DNA of 64,000 bases from Gammaproteobacteria bacterium (GTDB lineage Bacteria > Pseudomonadota > Gammaproteobacteria > Arenicellales > Poriferihabitantaceae), in assembly GCA_024644945.1 (NCBI GenBank), contig JAHEGU010000001.1:1-64000 (forward strand), in the 5' to 3' direction. Below are positions 14,810 to 40,604 of this stretch, one piece after another. How positions within the stretch are numbered: position 1 is the stretch's first letter; each line of letters opens with the position of its first letter. The notes under the pieces were generated by a model. The model did not search any database and was not told the origin of the DNA. It saw only the letters and a program-made list of their open reading frames with translations. The position numbers and the translations under genes are program-made.

Positions 14810-14823
14810 AGCGAGTCCCACCT

Positions 14824-16623: not shown

Positions 16624-16726
16624 GGGCAGATAACTTTGCAGGCATCGTGGCGTTTAATCTCCGAGTACGATCGAAACAGCGCTCAAGCATCCAAAATACG
16701 CTATAAATACATCCTTGTAGCCTCGG

Positions 16727-16748
16727 CTCCGGCCAGGGATGGCCGGAG
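16727..16748. repeat. Strong palindrome (REP-like?)
   Basis: CTCCGGCCA GGGA TGGCCGGAG, between convergent genes. Confidence 0.45.
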
Positions 16749-16855
16749 AGCGAGCGCCCAGGGAAGGCTAGAGCGGGTTCTGGAAAACCAAGCGTAATTG
16801 CGCCTGACACTTCAGCACGATTCGCGCGCAGTTTTAGCTTTGTGACACGCAGTGA

Positions 16856-18912: not shown

Positions 18913-19052
18913 GGTTCTAAATTTTATCAGCCACCGCCATAGATAAATTGGCTAGCGCGTCACCGTATTGCTGTTTGATGAAAAACATCGTTAAGTTATA
19001 TCAGAGCTTTTAAGGCTGGCAGGATAGTACCACAAGGGCCCTTATGCTCCGC

Positions 19053-20972: not shown

Positions 20973-20995
20973 ATTGCCGCCAGACTGATCAATTG

Positions 20996-21259
20996 TTATT
21001 TAAGTCTGGCTAAAAGGTGCCGCACTTTCGCCTTCAGCGCATACTGGTTTCTTAACCAGATTCGCGCTTTAAACATGGGCTTACCTAGGTAATGCAGAAT
21101 CCCCAGCTTAAGCATGCATATCAACCCAGGGCCGGTGTCAAAGTTACCCATAATTGATGTCTTCATGCGCACCCAGTGACGAAACTGCCGGATTAAAGAA
21201 TTGCCGGTTAAATCGAAACGACTGCTGAGGACCAGTTTGTTTTTTGGTTGCATGCTCAA
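20996..21259 (-). CDS. Small basic hypothetical protein (87 aa), start overlaps upstream stop
   Basis: ORF coupled to 21256-23316 gene. Confidence 0.45.
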   Translation of the reverse strand: MSMQPKNKLVLSSRFDLTGNSLIRQFRHWVRMKTSIMGNFDTGPGLICMLKLGILHYLGKPMFKARIWLRNQYALKAKVRHLLARLK

Positions 21260-23316
21260 CGGTTAATCATTTCTTTAAGATGTTTACGAAATTGCCATCG
21301 CAGGGTCAAACAAGCCCACACTTGTTTCCAGCCCGTGACTTCCCAAGGATTGTATAAGAACTTTGGCCTGCGGGACCGTCTCGGTGTATTTGCTCCATGA
21401 AAATCATCCAGGTGGTGCAGATGACGAATGTTTTTGATCTCGCGCCGATGAGGAAACGCCAGTTTACTAACCAGTAGATAGTGAATCCAAGGCCGATAGC
21501 CTGCAGTGCCGTGAGTCACCACCGCCGAAGCGGCAGCAAATCGATCTGCCGCATCCAGGACCGCCTGCTGCAGATCCGCATAGTAAGTGTCCTGGTTCTG
21601 TTCGCCCTTACCAATGTCGTCATCCATTTGGCGGAACACCAGCTGATGGCTGCCGTCTGAATTTAGGTGGTAAGCATTCAGGGTCGGATAGGGTGCACGA
21701 CAAGCTTCCTCAAATAGATCTCGAGCATACAGAATCGCACTGCTTGCAAAATCAAAGCGATCCCGATCAAACATAAGTCCCTCGATATAGTTATCAGTCG
21801 TAGTCGGAAAAACGATGCCACGGCTGGCGCCGAACAGCATGCCGTGCAGTATCGGTCGGTCCGATCGATGCTTGATTGCGCTATAGAAAAAACGCTGAAT
21901 CGTTCCCAGCCAGCCAATGTCAACTAATGCGACATCGTCATGTTGAAACAATCCTAAGGACTCGAGGTATCGCTGTAAGGCCTGATTGGAATCCCTGCTC
22001 TGACCCATCACCTCCTGTTGAAACGCCGGGCTTCGAATCATTTGCTCGAAAGCGCGTCTGTTTTCGACACAAAAGCCCTCATGCGCTGGACTCAGGGTAC
22101 TGTCCAGCTCTAGATCATGCTGTGCGAGGCAAGACACCATGCTCTCAGGATCAAGACTGAAAACCCTACACACGTCGCGAAAGCTTCGATTTCCTGGCGG
22201 TAAAAACACGATGTCTGCTTTTTCCTGGGTTAGACCTTCATGGGCACAACTCGCCCCCGCCAGAGCCTGGCGGCTGACATGAAGATAGTCGATTTCTGGC
22301 AGTCGCCCGTCTGGATATAATAATGGCATGGTTTTTTCCCAAACCTGCTTGAACATCCAGCCTTCTCTTGAGAGAAAAAACAGCTTAGATATGTTTTTCT
22401 CTCGGCAGCGTTCTGCGACAAAGTGCACAAACATACTGATCAGCGGGCCAAAGAAATTATAGCCTTCGACATACATCGGTGACTGGGGAATATTTTCCGC
22501 TTCGATGGGTGCCATAAGCTGCTGTAACGCGCGGCCTTTCCAAAATGGTCGGCGCGTGCTGTAGAAGAATTGACGTGCGGCGATCGCCTTGCGTCGGTAC
22601 TCTTCCGGGTCCTGCAGCACCAGTGCTTGAATACCATGCTCGCTGGGCCTGAAGCCATCCGATATTGGGTTATCGCCAACATGCAACCATTTACTCGCAG
22701 CCAAGCCTAGTTTCGCTGCAATTTCCGGATAAGTTCGGCCTGAAGCCTTGGCAAGAAAGTTGTCAGCTGAGGAGAACACCTGTTCGACATGTTCCAGAAT
22801 ACCAGCATGCTTAAGCAGTATTTTGAGATGTTCTGCCGGTAGATAAATATCTGAAATCACCAGGACCCGCTTGTCTGCTCTTGCCAACTCCTTTAACCAT
22901 TCAACAATTTCAGTTCGAGGCACCAGCATCGCGTTTTCCATCTGCATTTCATACCGGGTGACCAGGTCCAGTAGCGAAGCATCGGCCACCTCCCCAAATA
23001 TTTTCTCTAGCGTCTCCTGCATAAACACAGGGTAACGGGCTTCGCGGTCCTCATATGACTCACCGGTCAGAGCCCGCATGGCGTTTTCGGTATCGTCGCG
23101 CAGCAGCTGTACCTCGCGCCAGTTCCAATCAAGCCCCTCCGCCCTGGCAAGATTACTGATGAATCGCGCCACAGGAAGCTTTACCAGGTCGGGGTCATGG
23201 GTGCGTCTGACCAGCAGGGTGTCAAACATATCGAAGGACACCGTCTCCACATTGTTCTGAATTTTACGCCCTCTTGATACCAGGGATTCGGGGCTATAGA
23301 CGGTGTTGAGGTTCAT
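21256..23316 (-). CDS. HAD-like protein of polysaccharide loci
   Basis: VSFDMFDTLLVRRTHDP, LVISDIYLP, KLFFLSREGWMFKQVW. Confidence 0.75.
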   Translation of the reverse strand: MNLNTVYSPESLVSRGRKIQNNVETVSFDMFDTLLVRRTHDPDLVKLPVARFISNLARAEGLDWNWREVQLLRDDTENAMRALTGESYEDREARYPVFMQETLEKIFGEVADASLLDLVTRYEMQMENAMLVPRTEIVEWLKELARADKRVLVISDIYLPAEHLKILLKHAGILEHVEQVFSSADNFLAKASGRTYPEIAAKLGLAASKWLHVGDNPISDGFRPSEHGIQALVLQDPEEYRRKAIAARQFFYSTRRPFWKGRALQQLMAPIEAENIPQSPMYVEGYNFFGPLISMFVHFVAERCREKNISKLFFLSREGWMFKQVWEKTMPLLYPDGRLPEIDYLHVSRQALAGASCAHEGLTQEKADIVFLPPGNRSFRDVCRVFSLDPESMVSCLAQHDLELDSTLSPAHEGFCVENRRAFEQMIRSPAFQQEVMGQSRDSNQALQRYLESLGLFQHDDVALVDIGWLGTIQRFFYSAIKHRSDRPILHGMLFGASRGIVFPTTTDNYIEGLMFDRDRFDFASSAILYARDLFEEACRAPYPTLNAYHLNSDGSHQLVFRQMDDDIGKGEQNQDTYYADLQQAVLDAADRFAAASAVVTHGTAGYRPWIHYLLVSKLAFPHRREIKNIRHLHHLDDFHGANTPRRSRRPKFLYNPWEVTGWKQVWACLTLRWQFRKHLKEMINR

Positions 23317-23334
23317 GCAGACAGTCGTATGGTT

Positions 23335-24264
23335 TTATCTACCGCTAAGGCGACGCAATGCGGTTTTGACCATCCTTTTTATTCCGATTCCCAATTTGTT
23401 ACCCGGGGTATTAGAAATCTGGCCTTGCTGTATCCGACCTAGCTCTGCCTTGACCTCATTCAACTCGTTTTCGAGTGCGCGTAACCGGTCGGTGCCTGCA
23501 GCAACATAGCCACGATAGGCTTCTGGGACTTTCGCCAACATGTACTTGCGTATTACCTCAAGATCCTGCTCTCGCCCAGTAATTGCCGCTTCAGATAGCG
23601 TATTCCCTTGGTGGATTCGGTAGTAAAGAAGCCTGTCCTGGTCAAGATAATGCACGCTGTTCGGAAACGCCAACATTAATCGAAAAATATAGTCATAGTC
23701 GTGCAGATATCTCAGGCTCGAAAATTTCCCGACTTCTTGCATCGCATGCCTGGTCATAAACAAATTGGATGTAGTGACCATCAGATTACCCTGCAGGAAT
23801 CCGGTATAGAGGTCTGCCTGTTCAAAGTAGAATTGGCGGTTCCGTTGGTGCCACAGATTCCACCCGAACTCAGGGTCGGTGAACTCGATGCCGTCGTCGG
23901 AAATCGGGATCACATCTGAAATTATGCAGTCAGCTTGGTGCTCAAGAGCATAGGTCAACAACCTTTCCAATCGATCCAGGGTGTAGACATCGTCAGAGTT
24001 TAGGATTGAAACAAAGTCGCCACGGGCGATATCTAACCCTCGATTAATGGTATTGAACGCGTCCTGGTTCTCTTGAAAGGTGTAAGACAATCTATCGTCA
24101 TCATAGGAGTGAATTACCTTCGCGGTGCCGTCTGTAGACCCATCGTCAACGATCACTAATTCAAGATCCTCTATACTTTGCTGCAGTACTGAGTCGATCG
24201 CGTCACCGATAAATTTCTCGTGGTTATAGGCTGGAATGACGACCGATACGAGAGGCGCGGTCAT
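23335..24264 (-). CDS. GT2-family glycosyltransferase
   Basis: VSVVIPAYNHEKFIGDAIDSVLQQ...VDDGSTDGT...ILNSDD. Confidence 0.92.
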   Translation of the reverse strand: MTAPLVSVVIPAYNHEKFIGDAIDSVLQQSIEDLELVIVDDGSTDGTAKVIHSYDDDRLSYTFQENQDAFNTINRGLDIARGDFVSILNSDDVYTLDRLERLLTYALEHQADCIISDVIPISDDGIEFTDPEFGWNLWHQRNRQFYFEQADLYTGFLQGNLMVTTSNLFMTRHAMQEVGKFSSLRYLHDYDYIFRLMLAFPNSVHYLDQDRLLYYRIHQGNTLSEAAITGREQDLEVIRKYMLAKVPEAYRGYVAAGTDRLRALENELNEVKAELGRIQQGQISNTPGNKLGIGIKRMVKTALRRLSGR

Positions 24265-24267
24265 AGT

Positions 24268-26631
24268 TCAGCCCTTACCGCCCAGTTTGCGGAACCCGCT
24301 AACAATCTTAGTAATTTGGCTGCCTATTAGAAAGGATTTACTGGTTTTTATACTTTCGAGCTCGGTTCCCATGTCGACAACCCTCTGTTCCAGACGTTCC
24401 AGCCTGGACTTCTGTTCTTCATTTACTGCTTTTGTTGATTGTAGATCCAGTATTGCCTGGCGTTCTTTAACTAAAAAACGTTTGTAAGTTAACGCATACT
24501 CCATCGACTGCACGATAGCAGCGTCAATGTCGACAAAGTATGTCTTTTTCGCATCTAAGGTCTGCGGCGCTGACAGAGCAAACTCCAATTTTGGAAAATC
24601 GGTTATGGCTACCCAGGTGGCAAGCTTTCCTTCAATGGAGAATTCTGCGCTGGTTGCAACACACTGATTGGCTATTTGTTCAGGCCCATCGAGTTGCCAA
24701 AGAATCCGCTCTCTACCCTCAGTTTCTTGCACAAGCCTGACGGCATTAATTTGAAAAAATCCGATGCCGGGCGGTTTTCGAATATCAAAGGGATCAAAGC
24801 GAATACTCTCAATAGCAGTTGCACCATCGAGAGAAAAACGAAGGGTGTTAATTTCTGGATCGGGTGTTAGCTCCAGCGTGGTTTTCCGTTGCTCTGTAAA
24901 TTCTTCCTTTCGAGCCCGCCATAAAACACTCGGATGCACACTCTCCGTGCCATCTTTGAATTCAAAAACTGTCGCGAGTAGTTGATCGACGTCCGGCGAA
25001 TCGCTCGCCCTGGCAATGGCCTTCTGAAATCGATTTTCCTGTTGCGCGAACAAATCTAGATGTTCATTCAATTGCATCGAATTGATGTGAAAACCATATT
25101 CTACGAAATCGCGCACCGTCTGGAGTTCAAGCCATCCGAGAAAGTCTTTTAAATAAACCCAGTTGGTGACGATGAACGTCAGTAGCGCGCGAAACAACAA
25201 GAACTCTTTGCTAAGAGTCCAGTCGACCTGCCATTCACGATCAAATGCCTGCCACTCACCCTGCTCATCGATAATAATGTTAATAGGCAACAGATCAATG
25301 TGAAGCGCGCCCGCTTTTTCCTCAAGGCCCAGGTACTGATAGTAGTCCTTTAGCAACTGGTCGAACTCGTTACGACGAACGTAAATCAATATTGTGCGCA
25401 GCCACTGCGTGGCGAGCAGGTCGCCGTGAATAAACGGCTGCTCATCGAGTTGTTGTCGAATTCCGGATTCCGGGATATCCCGATCAATCACCAATGGATA
25501 CTTAAGCACCTTGTCTTTAGCGGTGGGCTTGATCGTCGTCACCGCATAGCTGTTTTTGCGCGACTGGCTTGGCCCATGGCAAAAATCAAAGTCCTGCACC
25601 CGGTCGACGGCCGCCGGTTCTTCGGCCATCACAATACAGAATGAATTTGATACCTCACCTAGAAAATTACCGGCGCTCGCCGCCTGCCAGCAGATCATTT
25701 CCGTAGCCGTTCTTGGCATCGGCGCGCAATAGTCACGCGATATGATTCCCTCCAGGTGATTTGCGGCATGTGGATTTTGGTAGACGTAATCCTCTGCTAA
25801 CACTACTCGCGGTATCTTGTAATCGGGAAAGGGATAGCTGAAAGCAACGTTGTTAAAACCAACTTCCTCGATCAGTTGCCGCCATTCTGCCTGGCTGTAT
25901 GTTGCTATGCCCGCTGACTCTCGATAGCCATTTATCCCTATGTACCGTTTTGCATAGTGATCTTCGTGCGCTCCCAGCATGTACTTGAGTCCGAGTCGGT
26001 TTTCAATCGCAACCAGAATTACGCCAGATGGGGTGAGGTGTTTTCTGGATTGACCGAGGATGGTTCTTGCGGCTGCGCTATCACTTTCTGCGTCCGGATG
26101 AAATTTGCTCGCGTATTCAATCACGCCTACGAACAGTATCAGGTCGTAGTAGCCCTCTGGTAATTCGAGATCGTTGTAGTTTGCGTTGATAACCCGGACA
26201 TTATTCAGGTCCCGACACCGCATGGCACCGAGTTCAGCGCGTGCAGCGCTTCCTTCCACGGCGTCTACCTGCTTTCCAAGTTCTCCCAGATAACGCGATA
26301 TAGCGCCGCAGCCGGACCCGAGCTCAAGCACCCGTGAGACCGAATCCAGATTGAACGGGCGCAGCAAATTTGAGCGATCACTGGAAAGATGGTACTCACT
26401 TGGCCAGTCAACAATCGCTGCTTGAAGCTCGTCGGAACGAGTGCTGAGGTCAACCGCTGCACTGAGCACTTGGTGCAGATGGCATTCTGTTTCAACGCCA
26501 TCAGAATAAGCAAACGAATCAACGGCGCTGTCACCGACCACAAACGTCTTTTGGTTCGTTGCGGAAAGCTGATTTAGAGAAATGATGTCTACCATCGCCA
26601 AAGGCGTATCAATGGTCTCACAGAGCGTCAC
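24268..26631 (-). CDS. Multidomain methyltransferase / kinase-like protein with C-terminal coiled coil
   Basis: RVLELGSGCGAISRYLGELG motif I; LHIDLLPINIIIDEQGEWQAFDREW resembles an aminoglycoside/choline-kinase-type loop; heptad-rich C-terminus. Confidence 0.7.
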   Translation of the reverse strand: MTLCETIDTPLAMVDIISLNQLSATNQKTFVVGDSAVDSFAYSDGVETECHLHQVLSAAVDLSTRSDELQAAIVDWPSEYHLSSDRSNLLRPFNLDSVSRVLELGSGCGAISRYLGELGKQVDAVEGSAARAELGAMRCRDLNNVRVINANYNDLELPEGYYDLILFVGVIEYASKFHPDAESDSAAARTILGQSRKHLTPSGVILVAIENRLGLKYMLGAHEDHYAKRYIGINGYRESAGIATYSQAEWRQLIEEVGFNNVAFSYPFPDYKIPRVVLAEDYVYQNPHAANHLEGIISRDYCAPMPRTATEMICWQAASAGNFLGEVSNSFCIVMAEEPAAVDRVQDFDFCHGPSQSRKNSYAVTTIKPTAKDKVLKYPLVIDRDIPESGIRQQLDEQPFIHGDLLATQWLRTILIYVRRNEFDQLLKDYYQYLGLEEKAGALHIDLLPINIIIDEQGEWQAFDREWQVDWTLSKEFLLFRALLTFIVTNWVYLKDFLGWLELQTVRDFVEYGFHINSMQLNEHLDLFAQQENRFQKAIARASDSPDVDQLLATVFEFKDGTESVHPSVLWRARKEEFTEQRKTTLELTPDPEINTLRFSLDGATAIESIRFDPFDIRKPPGIGFFQINAVRLVQETEGRERILWQLDGPEQIANQCVATSAEFSIEGKLATWVAITDFPKLEFALSAPQTLDAKKTYFVDIDAAIVQSMEYALTYKRFLVKERQAILDLQSTKAVNEEQKSRLERLEQRVVDMGTELESIKTSKSFLIGSQITKIVSGFRKLGGKG

Positions 26632-26824
26632 CCCTTATAGACGGTATTGGAGGCTGCGGTGGAATTGGTGGCCGGAATTTTATCCGATCATGGTCCAAGT
26701 TGATACGCGGCGAAGGCCCGCCGATTCTCTGTTTCAATACCTATCCAGGATTGATTCGGCTGTTGAAACGGTTAAACTTACGTGCTCCTGTAAATTATCC
26801 AGTTTTTGGATGGACCATTTTTGT

Positions 26825-28870
26825 ATGAAGAAGCTACTCCCTGCGACCATTTCAATCCTTCTGTATTGCGGCGCGGCTCAGCCCGGAATTGCGGCTTCGG
26901 TGGCCATTGTTGACACCGGCCTTGATCCTGGCGTACTTGGGGGCCGTATCGTAGCGCCGGGTTACGACTTCTTCAACGACGATTCCGAAGCCATCGACGA
27001 CCAGCCGGGGCAGCATGGCACCTCTGCTGGTGTAACCGCAGTGAATGCAGCACCTAACGTCGGTTTGATACCGGTCAAGGCCTATGGCAGCAATTTTGAA
27101 ACCTCTTCGTCGATTCTCGGTCAAGCATTTAGTTTCGTTGCGGGTCAGAGAACGCGCGCTACTGCCCACAACATCGGCAGTATTACTAATACCCCCCTGG
27201 GCGCGTTGCAAGCAGTGACGAATTCAGGTTCGATTCTGGTTATCCAGGCAGGTAATGCTGCTGCGCCCGGGCCTACGGGTGATGCGCGCCAGGTACCTAA
27301 CCTGGGCGGCAGGGGCATTATTGCCGGGGGAATTTTAGGTGGCTCAATCTGGTCCGCCAGTAATCGAGCAGGAAATCTCCAAGATCATTACCTGGTGGCC
27401 GACGTCAGATCAGATATAAATGGCTGGGTGGGCACTTCCATGTCGACACCGCGAATTGCCGCGGTGGCGGCTTCGGTAGCTGAAGCGTTTCCCTTTCTAT
27501 CTCCGCAACAGGTTGTGCAGGTACTGTTTGACAGTGCAAGAGACCTGGGTGCACCCGGCGTGGATTCAACCTACGGTCACGGTCAAGTAGACTATAACGC
27601 TGCGGTTTCAGCCATAGGGGAAGGCACCATTCCCGCCGGTGGCGGAGGCGGCGGAGACGGTGGCGGTGGCAGTAGCGGTGGCGCAGGTATCGCAATAGCC
27701 GCTCTGGGCGTCGGAGCCGTGGTTGCTTACAATTTGAAAAATAAAGAAGAAGATCTTAAGAAAACGATCTTTGTAGATAAGTACGGTCGAGCGTTTAATG
27801 TTGATCTCTCATCTAGAACCACTGTCCGAAGTAATGCATCGCTGTTCGGCCTGTTCAGCGCGCGCCAGAATCCATTCACTGTCGTACAGATGGCAAATTC
27901 CGAGACGGTGCAATCTATTGCATTTGTCGATAGACCCTTCGATATAGACACGTTTAATTTTGATCCGACTGTCGATGATAGCCGTCGGATTGGGTTTAAG
28001 CACTTTATTGACAGCGGTAATATGGACTATTCCATGGGGCTAAACGCAGACCTGAGCGACGACTTTGGCGCATTATCCCTAGCTGGCGAATCCACCTTTG
28101 CACCCGACCCCAGTCGTTTCCTTTACAACCAAATGTTCACCACCCCTGTCTTGGGTTATTCATCCCAAGGTTCTACTTTTCGCTTAGGCTGGGATGATGG
28201 TGGCCAGCAGAGCCATCGACTAGGTCTTGCGGTGATCGACGACCAGGAGGAGTATGGCGTTCAGAGTAATAGCATCTTGTATGAAAACCGAGTGGAAAAA
28301 GAACGGGTCAAACTTGGATTTCAGCTCGGCGCCTTGATTGAGGACGGTAACCTATTTGGTGGCTCCTCTAACGGAGCGTTCAGCGCCAACAAGACCAGTA
28401 CCTATTACCTTGGCATAAATGGCGCCTGGAGTCTGACTCGCGATGTTTCACTAATTGGCGGCTACTTTCAGGGCCTCAGCGAGGTGGATGAATCTGATCG
28501 CGCTCTGCTGGACCAGTTTTCGGATATCCGCACTGAGGGATACGGAATCGGCCTGCTGGTTAATAATGCATTTTCACCAAAGGGAAGTTTCGGGATTTCA
28601 TATTCCAGTCCGATGCAAACCACATCGGGCAATGCCCGTCTGACGTTACCTACATCTCAGGATCGGTTTACCGGAGAGATCGGATACGAATCGTCTAACG
28701 TATCATTCAACGATGCAGATCAGGAACAGATTATTGAGGCCTACTACGGCTTTGCGCTGTCGCCGAAGAGCGATTTGTTTGCCCATTTTTCCTATACAAA
28801 AAATCCCATAAGCGAACCCGACCTCGATCACGACCAGACATTTTATGTCGGCTGGAAAAGGGCGCTTTAA
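26825..28870 (+). CDS. Secreted S8 (subtilisin-like) serine protease with long C-terminal region
   Basis: Signal peptide MKKLLPATISILLYCGAAQPGIAA; VDTGLD (Asp), GQHGTSAG (His), GTSMSTPRIAA (Ser); Gly-rich linker then ~430 aa C-terminal region. Confidence 0.85.
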   Translation: MKKLLPATISILLYCGAAQPGIAASVAIVDTGLDPGVLGGRIVAPGYDFFNDDSEAIDDQPGQHGTSAGVTAVNAAPNVGLIPVKAYGSNFETSSSILGQAFSFVAGQRTRATAHNIGSITNTPLGALQAVTNSGSILVIQAGNAAAPGPTGDARQVPNLGGRGIIAGGILGGSIWSASNRAGNLQDHYLVADVRSDINGWVGTSMSTPRIAAVAASVAEAFPFLSPQQVVQVLFDSARDLGAPGVDSTYGHGQVDYNAAVSAIGEGTIPAGGGGGGDGGGGSSGGAGIAIAALGVGAVVAYNLKNKEEDLKKTIFVDKYGRAFNVDLSSRTTVRSNASLFGLFSARQNPFTVVQMANSETVQSIAFVDRPFDIDTFNFDPTVDDSRRIGFKHFIDSGNMDYSMGLNADLSDDFGALSLAGESTFAPDPSRFLYNQMFTTPVLGYSSQGSTFRLGWDDGGQQSHRLGLAVIDDQEEYGVQSNSILYENRVEKERVKLGFQLGALIEDGNLFGGSSNGAFSANKTSTYYLGINGAWSLTRDVSLIGGYFQGLSEVDESDRALLDQFSDIRTEGYGIGLLVNNAFSPKGSFGISYSSPMQTTSGNARLTLPTSQDRFTGEIGYESSNVSFNDADQEQIIEAYYGFALSPKSDLFAHFSYTKNPISEPDLDHDQTFYVGWKRAL

Positions 28871-30695: not shown

Positions 30696-30860
30696 ATGAC
30701 CGAATGCCCAGTATGTGGAGCCGAACTTTCGCTGTCCGAAGATCTGGTTAAGGGAGAGCTACTTGAATGCGATGATTGCGGTACCGAACTAGAAGTTACC
30801 AGCCTCGAGCCGCTTAAAGTAGAAGAAGCACCGGAAGCTGAAGAAGACTGGGGACAGTAA
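30696..30860 (+). CDS. lysW: LysW-type amino-group carrier protein (54 aa), atypical C-terminus EDWGQ
   Basis: Manual translation: MTECPVCGAELSLSEDLVKGELLECDDCGTELEVTSLEPLKVEEAPEAEEDWGQ; CxxC...CxxC zinc motif, acidic tail, 5' of lysX. Absent from the ORF track because it is under 60 aa. Confidence 0.93.
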   Translation: MTECPVCGAELSLSEDLVKGELLECDDCGTELEVTSLEPLKVEEAPEAEEDWGQ

Positions 30861-30897
30861 TCCAGTCACGCTCTCACTATCCCGCTGAAAAGTTCTG

Positions 30898-31746
30898 ATG
30901 GCTGCCATCCGCGTCGGCTTTCTGCACTCTCTGGTGCGCAAAGAGGAAAAACTTCTGCTCACCGAGTTCGGTAAGCGAGCCAATGTCAGTTTGGTAATGC
31001 TTGACGACCGTTCTCTTCAGTTCGACTTGCATACAAAACCCACGGCAGATGTCATTGTCGAAAGAAGTATTAACCATTCTCGTGCGCTGCATGCGTTGCG
31101 ACTGTATCAGAGCCTCGGTATCCCATGCGTCAACAGTTACCAGGTGTCCCTGACCTGCGGCGATAAGATTCTGACATCGGTAGCACTGCGCGAACAAGAT
31201 GTGCCACAACCTGACCTGCGCATCGCTTTCACCGAGGAATCCGCTCTTGCGGCCATTGAGGATATTGGCTATCCAGTGGTTCTAAAACCAGCGGTTGGCT
31301 CTTGGGGCAGGCTGCTCTCTAAGATCAATGATCGGGATGCCGCCGAAACCGTGCTTGAACATAAGACTGTACTAGGAAGCTATCATCACTCGATATTCTT
31401 TATCCAAAAGTATGTGCCCAAACAAGGTCGTGATATTCGGGCTTTTGTCGTCGGTGACGAATGCATCGCGGCAATATACCGCAGCTCAGATCACTGGATT
31501 ACCAATACCGCGCGCGGGGCCCATGCCAGTAACTGTCCGGTAACTCCTGAGCTTGCGGACATTTGCCTGCGGGCAGCGCGGGCAGTAGGAGGGGGCGTGG
31601 TCGCGGTCGACCTGTTCGAGAGTGATCACGGGCTGCTGGTGAATGAAGTCAATTACACCATGGAGTTCCGTAATAGCATCGATACCACCGGGGTCAATAT
31701 ACCCGACCGCGTGATTGACTACGTCTTGTCCCAGGCAAGCGCCTAA
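30898..31746 (+). CDS. lysX: LysX-type ATP-grasp ligase (LysW-aminoadipate/glutamate ligase family)
   Basis: RimK-like ATP-grasp; [24 protein letters not shown] and [23 protein letters not shown]. Confidence 0.93.
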
Positions 31747-31747
31747 T

Positions 31748-32776
31748 ATGCTCTCCGTATCTGTCGCAGGTGGCAGCGGCTACGGAGGCGGTGAGCTGGT
31801 GCGGCTGCTGCTATCCCATCCAGGGGTCACCATCAATCAGGTAACGTCCGAGCGGTTTACCGGCAAGCCGGTAGCCAGGACCCATCCCAATTTACGCGGC
31901 GTGACCAACCTTAAGTTTTGCAAAATCGCCGACTTATCGCCCTGTGATCTGGTGTTCTTGTGTCTGCCGCACGGTCATGCCATGAATAGTCTTGATCACT
32001 TTCAATCGCTTGCACCTCGCTTGATTGATTTAAGTGGTGATTTTCGCCTGGACGACAGCGCTGCCTTTGAGAAATGGTATGGAGAGCCGCATGCATGCCC
32101 ACTAAAACTAAATGATTTTGTCTACGGTATACCTGAAGTCAATCGCGACAAAATCCGGGATGCACAATACGTAACCGGCGCGGGTTGCAATGCGACTGCT
32201 ACCATTCTGGCTCTGCTTCCACTTTACCAGCAGGGACTTGTAGACCAGGCCGTTGTCGAAGTCAAAGCAGGTTCCAGTGAAGGTGGAAATAGTGCCAGTG
32301 ACGCCAGTCATCACCCTGAGCGCAGCGGATCTGTGCGCTCATATAAACCTACCGGGCATCGACATGTGGCCGAAATGCAGATGGTCCTGGGTGAAACCGC
32401 AAATATTCATTTTTCCGCCACTTCAATCGAAATGGTGCGGGGGATACTGGCGACTTCTCATGTGTTCCTGAATCAGGAACTGGCTGACAAGGCGGTGTGG
32501 AAAATTTATCGGAAAGCTTACGGCGACGAGCGATTTGTGCGTATCGTCAAAGAACGCAGCGGGATCTATCGATATCCCGAACCGAAACTACTGTCTGGTA
32601 CAAATTACTGCGACATTGGTTTCGAATCAGACCCTCACAGCAATCGTCTCGTCGTTATCAGCGCCATCGACAATCTCATGAAAGGAGCGGCCGGCCAAGC
32701 GTTGCAAGCATTTAATCTGATGCATGGCTTTGCAGAGGATACCGCACTGGAGTTCACCGGGTTGCATCCCATTTGA
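31748..32776 (+). CDS. lysY: LysY/ArgC-type acyl-phosphate reductase
   Basis: VAGGSGYGGGELVRLLLSHP; TGAGCNATATILAL catalytic Cys; GSSEGGNSASDASHHPERSGSVRSYKPTGHRH. Confidence 0.92.
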   Translation: MLSVSVAGGSGYGGGELVRLLLSHPGVTINQVTSERFTGKPVARTHPNLRGVTNLKFCKIADLSPCDLVFLCLPHGHAMNSLDHFQSLAPRLIDLSGDFRLDDSAAFEKWYGEPHACPLKLNDFVYGIPEVNRDKIRDAQYVTGAGCNATATILALLPLYQQGLVDQAVVEVKAGSSEGGNSASDASHHPERSGSVRSYKPTGHRHVAEMQMVLGETANIHFSATSIEMVRGILATSHVFLNQELADKAVWKIYRKAYGDERFVRIVKERSGIYRYPEPKLLSGTNYCDIGFESDPHSNRLVVISAIDNLMKGAAGQALQAFNLMHGFAEDTALEFTGLHPI

Positions 32777-32804
32777 TCGGTCACCCACTGGCTCTTTTAT
32801 TCCT

Positions 32805-33452
32805 GTGTGTCGATTACTACTCATATCAAGTCCACAAGATTTTGATCCCAATCCGTTGCTGCAAGACTTCCGCGGCGTGTGTCGTAACAGCCGCGAATAT
32901 CAAGGTCATGGTTGGGGCTGTGCATGGTTGAGCCCTGAACAGAGCTGGCGGCTTCATCATGATATTGCACCGGTATGGGAGGATCCGAAGGAGGACTTCC
33001 CGAACACCCGCCTGTTTCTCGCCCATGCTCGCAGTGCGTTTCGCGACGAAGGCATTGCGGTTGAAAACAATATGCCTTTTTCCGATGGTACTTCAGTTTT
33101 CCTTTTTAACGGTGAACTGCGAGGCGTTAAAATCAAGGCAGACGGCCGCATTGGCGCGGAAAAAATTTATAACTATATTCGGCGTTTTGATCACGGGGAC
33201 CCTGCCGCAGCAACACGTAAAGCCACAAGTATCATCGACAAGCGAACCCGATACATTCGTGCAATGAACTTCTTTCTGGCGCGGCCCGACACGATTCAGG
33301 TGTGTAGCTGGTTTGGTGAAGATCCAGGCTATTTCCAGATGCGAACCACCGTACACGGTAGCACCCACATCATATGTTCTGAGCCGCTGCCAATGATATC
33401 GGGTGGCTGGGATAGAATACCCAACCATAGCATTCAAACAATAAACTTATAA
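32805..33452 (+). CDS. Class II glutamine amidotransferase-fold (Ntn hydrolase; EgtC/YafJ-like)
   Basis: GTG start 32805 gives MCRLLLISS with Cys2 as predicted N-terminal nucleophile; GHGWGCAWL, LFLAHARSA, NNMPFS, FLFNGEL motifs. Confidence 0.87.
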   Translation: MCRLLLISSPQDFDPNPLLQDFRGVCRNSREYQGHGWGCAWLSPEQSWRLHHDIAPVWEDPKEDFPNTRLFLAHARSAFRDEGIAVENNMPFSDGTSVFLFNGELRGVKIKADGRIGAEKIYNYIRRFDHGDPAAATRKATSIIDKRTRYIRAMNFFLARPDTIQVCSWFGEDPGYFQMRTTVHGSTHIICSEPLPMISGGWDRIPNHSIQTINL

Positions 33453-33492
33453 TGACTTCGGTTGTTACTTTTAACTTACCTGGAGAGCCGGT

Positions 33493-34284
33493 GTGATCAT
33501 CGTTAAAATCGGCGGTGGAGAATCGCTCAATTTGCAAGCGATCGTAAATGACCTGGCTGAACTCGAGCGCCCCTTCATTGTTATACACGGTGCCAATGCT
33601 TTGCGCGATCAGGTTGCGGCAAAAATGGGTTTTGAAAAGACGACCATCACTTCGGCTTCCGGTTACCAGAGTGTGTTTTCTGATGATTCAACACTGGATG
33701 CGATCTTAATGACATACAGTGGGCTGCGAAATAAACGCTTGGTAGAAATGTGCCAGCGCGCCGGTATAAACGCCGTGGGGCTCAGCGGTATTGATGGCCG
33801 GGTCATACAAGGCCAGCGCAATAGCGGTATCCGGGTTATCGAAAATGGAAAGAAAATGCTGAAAAGGGACCTTTCCGGCAAACCAAAATCGATCAATAAT
33901 GATCTCTTAGGGCTGTTGATGAGCAATGGCTATACCCCTGTTCTGACTATTCCAATTTGTGACCAAGATGGCTGCGCGATTAACTCCGAAAACGATGACA
34001 TTGTCTGCGAGCTGCAGAAATCACTGGATGCAGAGACTGTTATCCAGTTGATTGAGGCTCCTGGATTTTTGCGTGATGCGGATCATCCGGATTCTATCGT
34101 GCCCAAGCTTTCGCGCGATGAACTCGCCACCCGCGAACAACAGGTGAGCGGCAGAATGAAACGCAAGATGCATGCGCTGAACAAGCTGGCAATGGGTTCA
34201 ATTAGAGAAATTATAATTGCCGACGGTCGCGTCGATCACCCGATTCACGACGCGCTGAATGGAGGCGGCACCTGGATAACCTGA
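33493..34284 (+). CDS. lysZ: LysZ-type kinase (LysW-aminoadipate/glutamate kinase family)
   Basis: MIIVKIGGGESLN, GLRNKRLVEMCQRAGINAVGLSGIDGR, GRMKRKMHAL; GTG start. Confidence 0.92.
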   Translation: MIIVKIGGGESLNLQAIVNDLAELERPFIVIHGANALRDQVAAKMGFEKTTITSASGYQSVFSDDSTLDAILMTYSGLRNKRLVEMCQRAGINAVGLSGIDGRVIQGQRNSGIRVIENGKKMLKRDLSGKPKSINNDLLGLLMSNGYTPVLTIPICDQDGCAINSENDDIVCELQKSLDAETVIQLIEAPGFLRDADHPDSIVPKLSRDELATREQQVSGRMKRKMHALNKLAMGSIREIIIADGRVDHPIHDALNGGGTWIT

Positions 34285-35447
34285 TGACGAACTGGATCGA
34301 GCTTGAGCAAAAATTTGCCTTTGAGGTTTTTCCTAAACGGGATCTTGTAATTATCCGGGGACAAGGGGCAAGCTTGTGGGACGATAGGGGCAACGAATAT
34401 ATCGATTGTACTGCGGGGATTGGCGTCGCCAACGTTGGTCACGCTAATCCCGATGTAGTGGAAGCGTTACATGCCCAGGCGCAAAAACTGATCACCTGTC
34501 CAGGCATTTTTTATAATGATGCCAGAGCCCGCTTGATGCAAAAGCTGGTGCGAGCCGCGCCGCAAGGATTGACTCGAGCGTTCCTGTGTAATTCCGGCAC
34601 CGAGGCCATGGAGGCAGCAATAAAGTTTGCCCGCCTTACTACCGGAAAAAATGGCTTTATAAGCGCTATGCGTGGATTCCATGGCCGGTCCATGGGCGCT
34701 CTCAGCGCTACATACAAATATCGTGAGGAATTCGAACCGCTGATTCCGGGCCATCAGTTTGTACCCTTTGGCAACTTGAGCAAGCTGGAGGCAGCAATCG
34801 AGACGGATACCGGCGCCATCATTCTGGAACTGGTTCAGGGAGAAGGCGGAGTGCGCCCGGCAGACCCCGACTACCTTAAAGGCGTTCAAGCGCTGTGCAA
34901 TCAGAATGATGTGTTATTAATTGTCGATGAAGTGCAGACCGGCTTCGGGCGTACCGGTAAAATGTTCGCCTGTCAGACTTATGAAATCGATCCGGATATC
35001 ATGACCCTGGCAAAAGGGATTGCTGGGGGGGTCCCAATGGGCGCCACCCTTTGCAACGATCGTATCGCATCGGCTGCTGGAAAACATGGCTCTACCTTCG
35101 GTGGCAATCCGCTCGCCTGTGCGGCTGCCGAGGCGACTATCGATTATTTGCAGAGCCACGGTCTTGCGGAGCGCGCCGCCGAGCTGGGAGCGGCATTCGT
35201 TGGGCGATTCAATACCCGCTCACCGACCGTGGTGCGGGAGGTTCGTCAACTCGGACTGATGATTGGCATCGAGCTTAAAGCACGATCCAGACCCTATCTG
35301 GAAAAATTAATGCTCGCAGGGGTACTGGCATTGCCTGCAGGTCCGACCGTAATCAGGTTGTTACCACCTCTCGTCATATCAGAGGAGAAATTGCTTGAGG
35401 CATGCGATATTCTTGCAGATGTTCTAAATCAAGACCCGAGCGCCTGA
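34284..35447 (+). CDS. lysJ: LysJ/ArgD-type class III aminotransferase
   Basis: Overlaps lysZ stop; LLIVDEVQTGFGRTG...TLAKGIAGGVPMGA (PLP Lys). Confidence 0.92.
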   Translation: MTNWIELEQKFAFEVFPKRDLVIIRGQGASLWDDRGNEYIDCTAGIGVANVGHANPDVVEALHAQAQKLITCPGIFYNDARARLMQKLVRAAPQGLTRAFLCNSGTEAMEAAIKFARLTTGKNGFISAMRGFHGRSMGALSATYKYREEFEPLIPGHQFVPFGNLSKLEAAIETDTGAIILELVQGEGGVRPADPDYLKGVQALCNQNDVLLIVDEVQTGFGRTGKMFACQTYEIDPDIMTLAKGIAGGVPMGATLCNDRIASAAGKHGSTFGGNPLACAAAEATIDYLQSHGLAERAAELGAAFVGRFNTRSPTVVREVRQLGLMIGIELKARSRPYLEKLMLAGVLALPAGPTVIRLLPPLVISEEKLLEACDILADVLNQDPSA

Positions 35448-35488
35448 GCAAGACATTTTAGCCACCGACGCCTACCTTATTTTTCGCA

Positions 35489-36280
35489 TTGAGCAAACCA
35501 CTAAAAATTCAACACTCCATGTCCGGTGATGAACAATCTGCTTCCGGTCGTTATATGGACCTGGTAGTGGGTCAGCGTGGCTGGTTCAATTTGCTGCTCT
35601 ACGAGCTGGTCGTAATGGTCGCGCAAAAGCGGGCTGGGGCATTGGGACTATTGCTGCGCAAAAAAATGTATCCCTGGATCCTAGGCAGCGTAGGTAGCGA
35701 TGTCACTTTCGGCAGTAATGTGGTTATACGACACCCGCACAAAATCCGTATTGGTAACGGGGTAGTAATCGATGAAAATGTGTTACTCGACGCCAAAGGT
35801 GACTCAAATCAAGGCATCGACATAGGCTCTGGCAGCTACATCGGCAGGAACTCAATCATCAGCTGCAAAAATGGCGATATCGCTCTTGGCGAAAATGCCA
35901 ATATAGGGTGGAACTGCACAATCGCGGCAACCAGCCGTATTCGCATCGGGCGCGACTGCATCGTCGCCGCCTACAGTTATATTATTGGCGGCGGTAATTA
36001 TCATTACGACGACATCAATATCCCGATGTGTCAGGCTTATGACGATCAGGGCAAAGGAGGCGTTGAGCTTAAAGACGATGTTTGGCTCGGCTCCCATGTT
36101 GCAGTACTGGATGGTGTCACGATATCCAATGGATGTGTGGTCGCCTCCGGCTCCACTGTCACCAGGGATCTGCCGACGATGTCCATTAGTCTGGGTTCTC
36201 CTGCGAAGCCAGTGAGGCAGCGGCGCCCAGGAGAACAGGTGCAACAAGCCAGTGCAAGCACCGCCGAAGCGCCGCAATAA
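35489..36280 (+). CDS. Left-handed beta-helix (hexapeptide) acyltransferase
   Basis: Repeated [IV]GxG/IG-type hexapeptides; TTG start 35489 or ATG 35519. Confidence 0.85.
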   Translation: MSKPLKIQHSMSGDEQSASGRYMDLVVGQRGWFNLLLYELVVMVAQKRAGALGLLLRKKMYPWILGSVGSDVTFGSNVVIRHPHKIRIGNGVVIDENVLLDAKGDSNQGIDIGSGSYIGRNSIISCKNGDIALGENANIGWNCTIAATSRIRIGRDCIVAAYSYIIGGGNYHYDDINIPMCQAYDDQGKGGVELKDDVWLGSHVAVLDGVTISNGCVVASGSTVTRDLPTMSISLGSPAKPVRQRRPGEQVQQASASTAEAPQ

Positions 36281-36381
36281 TATCAGGCTGTTTCACCTGT
36301 CCTGAACACGCCCTTGAGCGTGCGGTTGCAGCCCATTAGCCGGTGTTATAATCCGCCGCCTGTTCAGTCCTAGCCCACCCT

Positions 36382-37110
36382 ATGAGCTTCAAGTCCAAGG
36401 TCGAAGACCTGTTGCGCAACTACCCGCCGTTATTCCGCTTTGCTTCCCGGATGTACCACAAAATGCACGGTTCTTTTCGCACCCTGAGTCCGGGTGCGCC
36501 CGGTGCGATTCGCAAAGGATTTGAGCGGGTACAGCAACGAGACGGCAGTGTGGATGGCGATTACTACGAGTTTGGTTTGTTTCGCGGATATACCTTTTTG
36601 CAAGCATGGAACCATGCCAGGGAGCTGGGTTTATCAAACGTAAATTTTTACGGATTTGACTCGTTCGAAGGTCTGCCACCGGCGGAGGGAATTGACCAGG
36701 CTGACGGTCGTTTTTTTGAGGGTCAGTTCGCCTGTTCACGTGAAGAGGTAGAGAATAACCTGGCCGGTGAAGGCGTTCTCCTCGACAAGATCAACCTGGT
36801 AGAGGGTTACTACGAAGACTCTTTGACCGAAGAGCTTCACAGCCGCTTTCCGTTTAAGCCGGCAGCTGTAGTGCTGCTGGACTGTGACTACTATTCTTCG
36901 ACGGTCACTGCTTTAAAGTGGATGGAGCCCTATATCCAGGTCGGTACGATTCTGTTGTTTGACGACTGGTTTTCCTACGGTGAAAGCAATGAACTAGGCC
37001 AGCAAAAAGCCTATCAGGAATTTCTTGATCGGCACCCAGAGTACCGCTCTGAAGACCTTTGGGAGTTTGAGAATCACGGCAAGGGATTCGAGCTGCAAGC
37101 GGGCACTTAG
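36382..37110 (+). CDS. TylF-like methyltransferase
   Basis: DYYEFGLFRGYTFLQAW...FYGFDSFEGLPPAEG...VVLLDCDYYSSTVTALKWM...GTILLFDDW. Confidence 0.83.
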   Translation: MSFKSKVEDLLRNYPPLFRFASRMYHKMHGSFRTLSPGAPGAIRKGFERVQQRDGSVDGDYYEFGLFRGYTFLQAWNHARELGLSNVNFYGFDSFEGLPPAEGIDQADGRFFEGQFACSREEVENNLAGEGVLLDKINLVEGYYEDSLTEELHSRFPFKPAAVVLLDCDYYSSTVTALKWMEPYIQVGTILLFDDWFSYGESNELGQQKAYQEFLDRHPEYRSEDLWEFENHGKGFELQAGT

Positions 37111-37167
37111 TGGGCGCGATACAAGCGGTATTTGTTTTCGCCTGCATAAAGACATATTATCTGGCTG

Positions 37168-37304
37168 TCTCAACGGGGCGCTCATTCTGGGTGATGCCTG
37201 CAAATGCGGTACTCATAGATTGAGCTGAGAGGGAATGAGCTGAGAGGCTCAAAACAGCCGACCCGTCGAACCTGATCCAGATCATACTGGCGGAGGGATT
37301 GAGA
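37168..37304 (+). ncRNA. TPP riboswitch (THI element)
   Basis: P1 TCTCAA(37168-37173)/TTGAGA(37299-37304); GGGGCG; CTGAGA; GACCCGTCGAACCTGATCCAG..CTGGCGGAGGGA core; upstream of thiBPQ. Confidence 0.95.
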
Positions 37305-37376
37305 ACCACGAGGTACCCAGCTTCCCGGCTACCTGCTCGCCACTCCGCACTGGTTAACATTTACGAGGAACTAACC

Positions 37377-38369
37377 GTGCGCTTTTACTTATTTGTCCTG
37401 CTGCTTATCTCTAACCTGGCCTTGGCCCAGGATAAACCTGTTTTAACCGTTTACACCTACGATTCGTTTGCGTCGGACTGGGGTCCAGGCCCAAAGGTAG
37501 AAGCCGCATTTGAGGAAGAGTGTGAGTGTGATCTAAATTTTGTGGCCGTAGACAGTTCCACCGGAATACTGAGTCGGGTTCAACTGGAAGGAGAAAGCTC
37601 TTCAGCAGATGTTTTACTTGGTCTGGATAACAGCTTGGTAGTTGAGGCCCAAAACACCGGTTTGATTACTGAACATGAAGTGGATATGACCAAACTTGAT
37701 TTGCCACTGCCATGGAACAATCAAAAATTCTTACCCTTTGATTTCGGTTTTTTTGCTTTTATATACGACACCTCTCGGATAACGTCTCCGCCAAATAGTT
37801 TCGAAAAGCTGTTGGACGCTGGCGACGATCTAAAAATTGTAATTCAGGATCCTCGCTCCAGCACTACCGGACTTGGGTTCCTGTTATGGGTGAAGTCACT
37901 TTACGGTGAGGATGCACCGCAGGCTTGGAGCAGACTGGCACCTAAAATACTGACGGTAACCAAAGGCTGGTCCGAAGCTTATGGAATGTTTCTGGAAGGC
38001 GAGGCTGATATGGTGCTGAGCTACACGACCTCTCCTGCTTACCACATGATTGTAGAACAAGAGAGCCGATATAAAGCGATCGGCTTTCCAGAAGGACACG
38101 GGATCCAGATTGAGGTGGCCGCCGTGCTTAAAAATGCACCCCATCCAGAACTGGCCCAGCGCTTTATGCATTTTATCGCCAGTGAATCCTTCCAAACACT
38201 GATCCCAACCGGCAACTGGATGTATCCGGTAATATTCCCCAAACAAGGGCTTCCGGCCGAATTTCGTGACCTTGTGCGCCCTATTAAAACCCTGATGATC
38301 GACCCCCAGGGCATCGCTGACAATAAAGCCGATTGGATTGACGAGTTCAATCAGGCGCTCAGCCAGTAA
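37377..38369 (+). CDS. thiB: Thiamine ABC transporter substrate-binding protein
   Basis: Signal peptide; VLTVYTYDSFASDWGPGPKVEAAFEEECEC; downstream of TPP riboswitch. Confidence 0.94.
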   Translation: MRFYLFVLLLISNLALAQDKPVLTVYTYDSFASDWGPGPKVEAAFEEECECDLNFVAVDSSTGILSRVQLEGESSSADVLLGLDNSLVVEAQNTGLITEHEVDMTKLDLPLPWNNQKFLPFDFGFFAFIYDTSRITSPPNSFEKLLDAGDDLKIVIQDPRSSTTGLGFLLWVKSLYGEDAPQAWSRLAPKILTVTKGWSEAYGMFLEGEADMVLSYTTSPAYHMIVEQESRYKAIGFPEGHGIQIEVAAVLKNAPHPELAQRFMHFIASESFQTLIPTGNWMYPVIFPKQGLPAEFRDLVRPIKTLMIDPQGIADNKADWIDEFNQALSQ

Positions 38370-38404
38370 ACAAGTACTTTTCTGCCGAGCCAGTTTGAGA
38401 TTCT

Positions 38405-39994
38405 ATGCCAGGTCTGTTCGCAGCTATACTGGTAGGTCTAACAGTAGTTAGCGCACTCTGCGGCCTGGCGATCCATGCTGGAGATATTCCTCTGTTTGAG
38501 CAACTAAGTAAGCCTTATACCTGGTCTATCATCCGTTTCACTTTTACTCAGGCCGCGCTCTCGACATTCTTCAGCGTGGCCCTGGCTGTTCCGCTTGCAA
38601 GGGCACTTTACAGACGACAGCATTTTTTCGGCAGAGCGCTGTTTATACGATTTACCAGCATCTCTTTGATCGTGCCTACGATGGTGGCCGTCCTGGGCAT
38701 CGTCGCTGTCCATGGTCGGAACGGATGGATTAACGATTTACTGACTCTGATCGGCCTTTCGAGGCAGGACTATTTGTATGGATTGAATGGAATCTTAATT
38801 GCTCATATTTTCTTCAACCTGCCTCTGGTTACCCGACTGTTTCTTAATGGACTGTCGGATATCCCGGCTTACCAGTGGAAGCTGGCGACATTGCTCGGTT
38901 TTAACAGCAAACAAAATTTCAGATTGATAGAATGGCCCGCACTACGAGGGCTGGTGCCGGGTGCGGCGGGCATTGTATTTCTGCTGTGTTTCACTAGCTT
39001 TGCTATCGTGCTGTCGCTGGGAGGCGGTCCCGGGTCTACCACTCTTGAGGTGGCAATCTATCAGGCGATTCGATTCGATTTCGATCTTTCCAAAGCGGTA
39101 GCGTTATCCCTTATCCAGATTGGTTTATGCCTGGTTCTGGCGTTTTTGTTTTTTTCAAAACAATCCGTTCTAAAGCTTCAGTCTGATCAACCACCGGGGG
39201 TGGGTCGGCCTGATAGTGGCCAAGTGATAGGTATTGTTCACGACAACCTGGTGATTGGTGTGACAGCGATATTCCTTTTGTCACCGTTTACTGCCGTTCT
39301 GATCAACAGTCTTTCTGGCAATGGCTGGATGATCCTGACCGATCAGCGCTTCTGGCGGGCATTCGGGTCTAGCCTTTTTATCAGTCTTAATGCCGGGCTG
39401 TTAGCGACCGTGCTTGGCCTTTCTATTGCGCACTTGATCGCCAGGCTGCGGTGCAATCAGACTACCAGCTGGCTGGCCACCATTCCCGAGTTAGTCGGCA
39501 TGCTGACATTGTTGATACCGCCCATCACTCTGGGTACCGGGCTATTCCTGCTATTCCGGTCTTTCACGGACGCCCTTTCCCTGGGTCAGTGGCTGGTGAT
39601 TTCAATCAATGCAATCTTTACCTTGGCATTTACACTCAGGATCTTAGTGGCGCCGGTACAACAACAGCAAAATCGATTCCACCATCTCAGTCGGAGCCTC
39701 GGGATAACGGGCTGGAATCAGTGGAAACTGGTGTTATGGCCGACCCTCAAGAAGCCCATCTGTTACGCCATGGCAGTATCAACCACGCTGTCGGCAGGGG
39801 ATATGGGGGTTATTGCCCTGTTCGGTACCGATCGGTTAAGTACGCTACCACTTCTCATTTATCGATTGCTTGGTAATTATCGATTAGACCAAGCCGCTGT
39901 AGTGGCTATTTGCTTGTGTATACTGTGCCTGCTGTTGTTCTGGTCTATCGAGAAGCTGGCACATAGTCCGGCAGGCGTCAAACCTCATGCTTGA
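38405..39994 (+). CDS. thiP: Thiamine ABC transporter permease
   Basis: Two permease domains, operon context. Confidence 0.92.
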   Translation: MPGLFAAILVGLTVVSALCGLAIHAGDIPLFEQLSKPYTWSIIRFTFTQAALSTFFSVALAVPLARALYRRQHFFGRALFIRFTSISLIVPTMVAVLGIVAVHGRNGWINDLLTLIGLSRQDYLYGLNGILIAHIFFNLPLVTRLFLNGLSDIPAYQWKLATLLGFNSKQNFRLIEWPALRGLVPGAAGIVFLLCFTSFAIVLSLGGGPGSTTLEVAIYQAIRFDFDLSKAVALSLIQIGLCLVLAFLFFSKQSVLKLQSDQPPGVGRPDSGQVIGIVHDNLVIGVTAIFLLSPFTAVLINSLSGNGWMILTDQRFWRAFGSSLFISLNAGLLATVLGLSIAHLIARLRCNQTTSWLATIPELVGMLTLLIPPITLGTGLFLLFRSFTDALSLGQWLVISINAIFTLAFTLRILVAPVQQQQNRFHHLSRSLGITGWNQWKLVLWPTLKKPICYAMAVSTTLSAGDMGVIALFGTDRLSTLPLLIYRLLGNYRLDQAAVVAICLCILCLLLFWSIEKLAHSPAGVKPHA

Positions 39995-40604
39995 GCTGTG
40001 CAACGTCGCGTACCACTACCCTGAAGCCAGCGTGCGGATTGACTTTCAGGTAGAAGCCGGTGGTGCAGCTGCGCTGATGGGTCCCAGCGGCTGTGGTAAG
40101 ACTACGATTCTCAATCTGATCGCGGGCTTATTGCATCCAGCACAGGGGGAGATCAAGTTCAATCATGAATCATTGCTTACTCTAAAACCAGCCGAGCGCC
40201 CGATCACATTTTTATTCCAGGCTCATAATCTTTTTCCCCACCTGACGGTGTGGCAAAACCTGGCGCTTGGTGTCGATCCCGGATTGAAAATTTCGCCGCG
40301 GGAAAAAATGAATATCGCGCGCGCCCTCGAATGGATTTCCATGTCCGAGTTTACCGAACGGTTTCCTTACGAACTTTCAGGTGGCCAGCAGCAACGCGTC
40401 GCCCTGGCAAGGTGTCTGCTCAGGAAGCGACCGCTACTTCTATTAGATGAACCATTCAACGCTCTCGATCAATCTCTACGATATGAGATGATTGCGCTGA
40501 TTGGTGAACTCCAGCAACAACAGAACCTCACGTTAGTGATCGCAACCCATCAACTACAGGATGCCGAAGCACTAAACGCCCGAATCGTCACCATGGCTCT
40601 ATAG
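39987..40604 (+). CDS. thiQ: Thiamine ABC transporter ATPase
   Basis: GPSGCGKTTILNLIAG, LSGGQQQRVALARCLL. Confidence 0.94.
   Translation: MLELCNVAYHYPEASVRIDFQVEAGGAAALMGPSGCGKTTILNLIAGLLHPAQGEIKFNHESLLTLKPAERPITFLFQAHNLFPHLTVWQNLALGVDPGLKISPREKMNIARALEWISMSEFTERFPYELSGGQQQRVALARCLLRKRPLLLLDEPFNALDQSLRYEMIALIGELQQQQNLTLVIATHQLQDAEALNARIVTMAL

Follow-up and report, generated by a model that had tools for sequence, protein, structure and literature searches.

This study concerns a cluster of genes for the amino-group carrier protein LysW and its partner enzymes, carried on a 64,000-nucleotide stretch of gammaproteobacterial DNA (contig JAHEGU010000001.1, positions 1 to 64,000; the window), in which a protein with the fold of class-II glutamine amidotransferases (GATase) is encoded between lysY and lysZ. 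The explanation we favour, with a probability of roughly 0.62, is that LysK, a zinc hydrolase, has been replaced in a variant LysW pathway by an EgtC-like N-terminal nucleophile (Ntn) amidohydrolase, and that a single active site of GATase would serve both for product release and for deamidation of carriers ending in Gln. Its basis is gene content, conservation, the replacement pattern, carrier tails, a predicted fold and active-site residues, and the reactions are predicted. Where LysW ends in Gln, GATase would hydrolyse the gamma-amide to Glu; LysX, judging from its family and motif, would then couple an acidic amino acid (alpha-aminoadipate being the likeliest) through its alpha-amino group to the gamma-carboxyl; on the carrier, as in other members of their families, LysZ would phosphorylate, LysY reduce and LysJ transaminate the side chain; and the N-terminal Cys of GATase would finally attack the gamma-glutamyl isopeptide, freeing a diamino acid and leaving LysW with Glu. 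With ammonia as leaving group the reaction would be maturation of a Gln-tailed carrier, and with the diamino acid it would be the end of the pathway, so that, most economically, one active site for any gamma-amide on the LysW C-terminus would account for the absence of LysK and at the same time for the free exchange of Glu with Gln. The six genes run in the order lysW-lysX-lysY-GATase-lysZ-lysJ (30696-35447), all on the + strand:

30696..30860, + strand: lysW, amino-group carrier protein of 54 aa with a CxxC...CxxC zinc ribbon, an acidic tail and the C-terminus EEDWGQ
30849..30857, + strand: W-G-Q codons, the final three residues of lysW; CAG, the terminal Gln, is one base off GAG (Glu)
30898..31746, + strand: lysX, ATP-grasp ligase of LysW, with the motifs GSWGR and NSIDT (specificity)
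31748..32776, + strand: lysY, [LysW]-aminoadipyl/glutamyl phosphate reductase of the ArgC family, start ATG 31748
32805..33452, + strand: GATase, GATase-II-fold Ntn amidohydrolase, proposed LysW gamma-glutamyl hydrolase/deamidase; GTG start; Cys2, Arg76, Asn102-Gly103, Gly117
33493..34284, + strand: lysZ, [LysW]-aminoadipate kinase, GTG start
34284..35447, + strand: lysJ, class-III aminotransferase of the LysJ/ArgD family

Matches to Pfam and NCBIfam models lay above cut-off for LysW (PF21344, E 1.3e-19; TIGR01206, 69.9 bits, cut-off 53.2), LysX (TIGR02144, 335.8 bits, cut-off 275.6), LysY/ArgC (TIGR01850, 382.5 bits, cut-off 233.6), LysZ (NF010659, 249.5 bits, cut-off 223) and LysJ (TIGR00707, 435 bits, cut-off 410); the Thermus LysJ model also matched window LysJ (E 5e-134), yet its 447 bits fall below its own cut-off of 700. 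A GATase start at 32724 was replaced by the GTG at 32805 (M-C-R...), which places the catalytic Cys at position 2.

GATase as a core gene where LysK is absent

The original prediction had described the named genes as contiguous on one strand with a GATase-II-fold protein between LysY and LysZ, and both points were confirmed, but its view of that protein as an insertion into an ordinary gene set was not, since GATase belongs to the conserved core of the cluster in about ten bacterial groups. Strong matches were found in 29 of 80 relatives, spread over many families of the order, and the six-gene synteny, also seen in 29 of the 80, is far beyond chance. Across 28 related loci GATase is, with few exceptions, found inside lysX-lysY-GATase-lysZ-lysJ when the contig is long enough, and the six-gene core is kept in these and in 80 further loci. 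A collection of GTDB representatives gave GATase matches at 212 places, the best 80 of which are labelled Gammaproteobacteria, Gemmatimonadota/Longimicrobiales, Acidobacteriota, 'Deltaproteobacteria'/Thermodesulfobacteriota, Binatia, Phycisphaerae, KSB1, Melioribacteraceae and Spirochaetia (one spirochaete); most of the genomes behind this distribution are metagenome-assembled genomes (MAGs), whose taxon labels were accepted as given. Within the Gammaproteobacteria the pathway is rare, LysX scoring above cut-off in 5 of 369 genomes, and plasmid collections yielded only three LysW records, their sole matches to GATase being general class-II enzymes at 25% identity. A few relatives have extra genes inserted into the core, separating either GATase from LysZ or LysZ from LysJ; in locus L112 LysJ lies far downstream, and in genome G003 some 9 kb separate lysZ from GATase (C51:91724). 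One acidobacterial GATase-type cluster has a reductive-dehalogenase-family gene (272 bits; locus L213, 8136-9527) within a few kb of it.

No LysK (M20) hydrolase is present in the window cluster, as had been predicted, and the host genome, in an assembly that is 92.6% complete, likewise has no match to the LysK model TIGR01902 above cut-off (best 89.3 against 163.1 bits). When 39 whole genomes were compared, TIGR01902 scored above cut-off in all three LysK controls and in none of the 36 GATase genomes, and no cluster with both GATase and LysK was found among the loci compared. Acidobacteriota and Gemmatimonadota hold both kinds, each cluster there having either LysK or GATase. The host has five M20 peptidases, as would be expected from its arginine and diaminopimelate (DAP) metabolism.

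Fold, active site and carrier tails

Window GATase has no Pfam match at E<=0.001, and the family as a whole gives weak matches to GATase_6/GATase_4; it is a distinct Ntn-hydrolase family, for which the searched copies of Pfam and NCBIfam contain no dedicated model. An AlphaFold model built from 27 sequences (pLDDT 89.8, pTM 0.89) was compared with the PDB by Foldseek, and the top matches were EgtC structures, both substrate-bound and substrate-free (E ~2e-12, TM 0.75), followed by other class-II glutaminases, so that both the predicted fold and the sequence indicate an Ntn fold with an N-terminal Cys nucleophile. Cys2, Arg76, Asn102 and Gly103 are invariant in 118 of 118 family members, all of which also have Gly117 where class-II enzymes have the Asp of their T-D-S/T-E motif. 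In GlmS and PurF this Asp binds the alpha-amine of free glutamine, and the Arg binds the alpha-carboxylate. With the Arg kept and the Asp lost, the expected substrate would have its alpha-carboxylate free and its alpha-amine blocked, and we infer from these residues that it is probably the C-terminal Gln, or a gamma-glutamyl residue, of a protein. All catalytic residues are also kept where the LysW of the cluster ends in Glu. EgtC itself takes off a gamma-glutamyl group in ergothioneine biosynthesis (PMC10805701).

The terminal Gln of LysW was a point absent from the original prediction. In studied systems the last residue of LysW is Glu, whose gamma-carboxyl bears the substrate, and Natrinema ArgW likewise has Glu at its C-terminus (PMC10433800), as do the three PDB LysW sequences (Thermus, Thermococcus and Sulfolobus). 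Window LysW has the zinc ribbon and EDWG tail of these carriers, with Gln where the attachment Glu of LysK-type LysW is expected, and its relatives end in Glu or Gln; an EDWGE terminus for the window protein was ruled out by its translation, which ends in EEDWGQ. Among 127 carriers with a complete tail, counted after duplicates were taken out, those adjoining GATase end in Glu (65) or Gln (37), whereas those adjoining LysK all end in Glu (17, with 0 Gln); the other eight lie on stretches too short to assign either enzyme, and no carrier ends in any other residue. On a LysX tree of 122 rows there were at least 12 changes between Glu and Gln tails and one change between GATase and LysK. A branch with support 91 (quick method) sets the GATase rows apart, and the 18 rows outside this clade all end in Glu. 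These patterns are suggestive of a tie between Gln tails and GATase clusters, an association strengthened by the fact that a ligase activating a gamma-carboxyl cannot use a gamma-carboxamide. A LysW ending in Gly (L127, Acidobacteria bacterium SB0668_bin_14) proved to be a frameshifted gene and was left out of the count; its halves lie at G451:C12:11870-11968 and 11817-11870, likely an assembly error. Eight acidobacterial loci (L233-L237 and L240-L242) encode LysW-like zinc-ribbon proteins with long Asp/Glu-rich tails, without a terminal WGE/WGQ and without LysX, LysZ or LysJ genes nearby.

Weighing the explanations

Several points weigh against the favoured explanation. The match of GATase to the EgtC equivalog model TIGR03442 is weak and below its cut-off (30.6 against 218.65 bits). 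The position of the Asp-to-Gly replacement was set by alignment with three class-II enzymes, GlmS and two others, and the role of the Asp is carried over from such enzymes. For the tails, the Fisher test of Glu or Gln against GATase or LysK (p 0.0013) ignores relatedness, and the confinement of all 12 tail changes to the GATase clade is modest evidence (p ~0.03 if changes are proportional to branch length). The retention of GATase beside Glu-tailed LysW speaks for a release role, short of proof. Finally, no homocitrate-synthase-type gene was found in what is assembled of the host, which makes glutamate a possible substrate there.

GATase might instead act on free glutamine, as class-II glutaminases ordinarily do, and pass the ammonia to another enzyme of the cluster, giving an amidated or amino-modified product, with release left to a host M20 enzyme (ArgE or DapE, for example). 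Its fold family is that of the glutamine amidotransferases and the five host M20 peptidases would be available, but this is improbable, since the alpha-amine-binding Asp is Gly throughout the family, the core has no synthetase domain needing ammonia, the nearest fold match is a gamma-glutamyl hydrolase, and the mutual exclusion of GATase and LysK would be left unexplained. It is also quite unlikely that LysX, a member of the RimK ATP-grasp family, ligates RimK-like to the alpha-carboxyl of the last carrier residue, so that the Glu or Gln side chain would be irrelevant and deamidation unnecessary. The free interchange of the two residues would fit, but a neutral side chain should permit residues other than these two, GSWGR is kept in a LysX that is 55-60% identical to the LysX of LysW-lysine systems, and a gamma-amidase would have no role. 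An elaboration in which Gln-tailed LysW is a pro-carrier activated by GATase as a gamma-glutamyl-thioester, the thioester then being used for loading, or for release by transamidation instead of simple hydrolysis, so that GATase would be both entry and exit enzyme in all of the roughly ten bacterial groups, appears rather remote. We likewise doubt strongly that the cluster makes a specialised metabolite, with the two genes 3' of lysJ acylating and methylating the product. These genes are closely spaced with the core, and one congeneric species has retained both, but they are missing beside the core in the other related loci, the methyltransferase gene lies 101 bp downstream, and the nonribosomal peptide synthetase (NRPS) or other assembly genes of Streptomyces amino-group carrier protein (AmCP) clusters are lacking.

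The likeliest substrate for the family, judged from motifs and neighbouring genes, is alpha-aminoadipate, and the product would hence be lysine or a relative. A five-residue motif in LysX/ArgX is said to govern substrate choice, with Asn-Thr in Sulfolobus LysX and Gly-Phe in ArgX (PMC10433800). With the register taken from the LysX/ArgX alignments, the window has NSIDT, as does a Deinococcus lysine cluster, Thermus has NSVHT and Sulfolobus ArgX has GFMVA; Asn-Ser occurs in every readable GATase-type LysX. The motif is only indicative, because it did not transfer specificity in a haloarchaeal ArgX (PMC10433800). In seven GATase loci (Acidobacteriota, KSB1, Melioribacteraceae) a homocitrate-synthase-like gene lies between lysW and lysX, and one of these adds homoaconitase and an isopropylmalate/homoisocitrate-type dehydrogenase; with such genes beside it, the same core in these related lineages looks like the alpha-aminoadipate lysine pathway itself. 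At the Melioribacteraceae locus argC and argJ adjoin, so that the LysW set is not needed for ornithine there. The cluster could alternatively be a second source of ornithine, made from glutamate as in LysW-ArgX systems, a reading that bears on the substrate alone and would leave the proposed role of GATase unaffected. It is possible, if somewhat unlikely. None of the gammaproteobacterial hosts tested has homocitrate synthase, and LysW-glutamate ornithine synthesis has been inferred from annotation in Gemmatimonadota (PMC11651109), an annotation that may rest on GATase-type clusters. On the other hand, the window motif is that of lysine-making Thermus and Deinococcus and not the Gly-Phe of ArgX, the host has a canonical ArgB, and at no position in LysX, LysZ or LysJ do loci having homocitrate synthase differ consistently from loci lacking it, so that the substrate cannot be read by that route.

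Known systems, host role and neighbouring genes

The LysW-LysK lysine pathway of Thermus and Deinococcus has the same LysW, LysX, LysY, LysZ and LysJ, here in one operon, the cluster of Deinococcus sp. NW-56 has the identical LysX motif NSIDT, and some GATase relatives likewise come with homocitrate synthase, homoaconitase and a dehydrogenase. The window differs in having a Cys Ntn amidohydrolase for the M20 zinc enzyme LysK, in the Glu or Gln tails of its family, and in a host where no homocitrate branch was found. The LysW/ArgW ornithine/arginine pathway (ArgX of Sulfolobus and Natrinema) is alike in carrier logic and enzyme families, but the window LysX has Asn-Ser in place of Gly-Phe, the host has a standard argB and the cluster is without ArgE/LysK. 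Streptomyces AmCP clusters also use a LysW carrier with LysX/Y/Z homologues outside primary metabolism, but have M20 hydrolases, NRPS genes, a transketolase and a Glu-ending LysW, none of which the window has. EgtC (PDB 4zfj/4zfk/4zfl) shares with GATase the fold, the N-terminal Cys, the Arg and the Asn-Gly, and cleaves a gamma-glutamyl amide, freeing a biosynthetic product; GATase differs from it in sequence (18% identity, far under the EgtC model cut-off), in having Gly for the class-II alpha-amine Asp, and in adjoining LysW. GATase is predicted to be functionally equivalent to LysK plus a deamidase, while being neither homologous to LysK nor, by the model cut-off, a member of EgtC. No literature joining LysW with a glutamine amidotransferase or a C-terminal Gln was found, in a search that left most subscription journals outside. 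Nor did that search give any description of the arrangement, which recurs in about ten bacterial groups.

If the favoured explanation is true, the last step of the LysW pathway has a second, non-homologous answer, a cysteine amidase for a zinc hydrolase, and the supposedly essential terminal Glu of the carrier is genetically dispensable, since the cell makes Glu from Gln. LysW pathways would then reach beyond Thermus, archaea and Streptomyces into many uncultured lineages, a missing LysK need not mean an incomplete pathway to annotators, and a testable enzyme family would be named that the model collections searched do not yet cover.

The assembly (3.79 Mb, 152 contigs, the window lying on contig 73) has gammaproteobacterial MAGs as near relatives in the collection compared. 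It encodes LysA (517 bits), on the same contig as the cluster, and a canonical ArgB (249.7 bits), so that, as far as gene content goes, the LysW pathway is accessory in this host; together with its rarity in the class, this agrees with what had been predicted for a gammaproteobacterium with the standard routes. The further claim that the product is 'not primary lysine' holds for this host by gene content but does not carry over to the related lineages with homocitrate genes. Tailoring of the product by an acyltransferase and a TylF-like methyltransferase had also been proposed, but the two genes lie outside the core, being common to the window and only one of the 28 related loci (G001, same genus):

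35489..36280, + strand: acyltransferase with hexapeptide repeats, non-core
36382..37110, + strand: TylF-like methyltransferase (PF05711), non-core

Intergenic gaps from lysW through the acyltransferase are 1-41 bp. Neighbouring genes common across families, sought in the 28 related loci as clues to the product, were found at family level only, and the loci, whose neighbours differ by family, have no NRPS or other product-assembly genes in common. The cluster ends before 37164, where a thiamine pyrophosphate (TPP) riboswitch (37164-37315, 63.4 bits, gathering 54.3) heads ThiB/ThiP/ThiQ-like ABC transporter genes (37299-40604), which look like a standard operon for the uptake of thiamine and not like part of the LysW cluster. 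On the 5' side the cluster is adjoined by a divergent gene for ATP-type PEP carboxykinase. Further upstream lies a surface-polysaccharide region (14776-26631) in which glycosyltransferases accompany a Wzt-type ABC ATPase carrying a Wzt_C domain; it also encodes a methyltransferase-like protein of 787 aa and has an ORF of 639 aa without a Pfam match (19056-20972). At 26582-28870 lies a 762 aa subtilase-domain protein (Peptidase_S8, E 1.9e-14) with an autotransporter-like C-terminal half.

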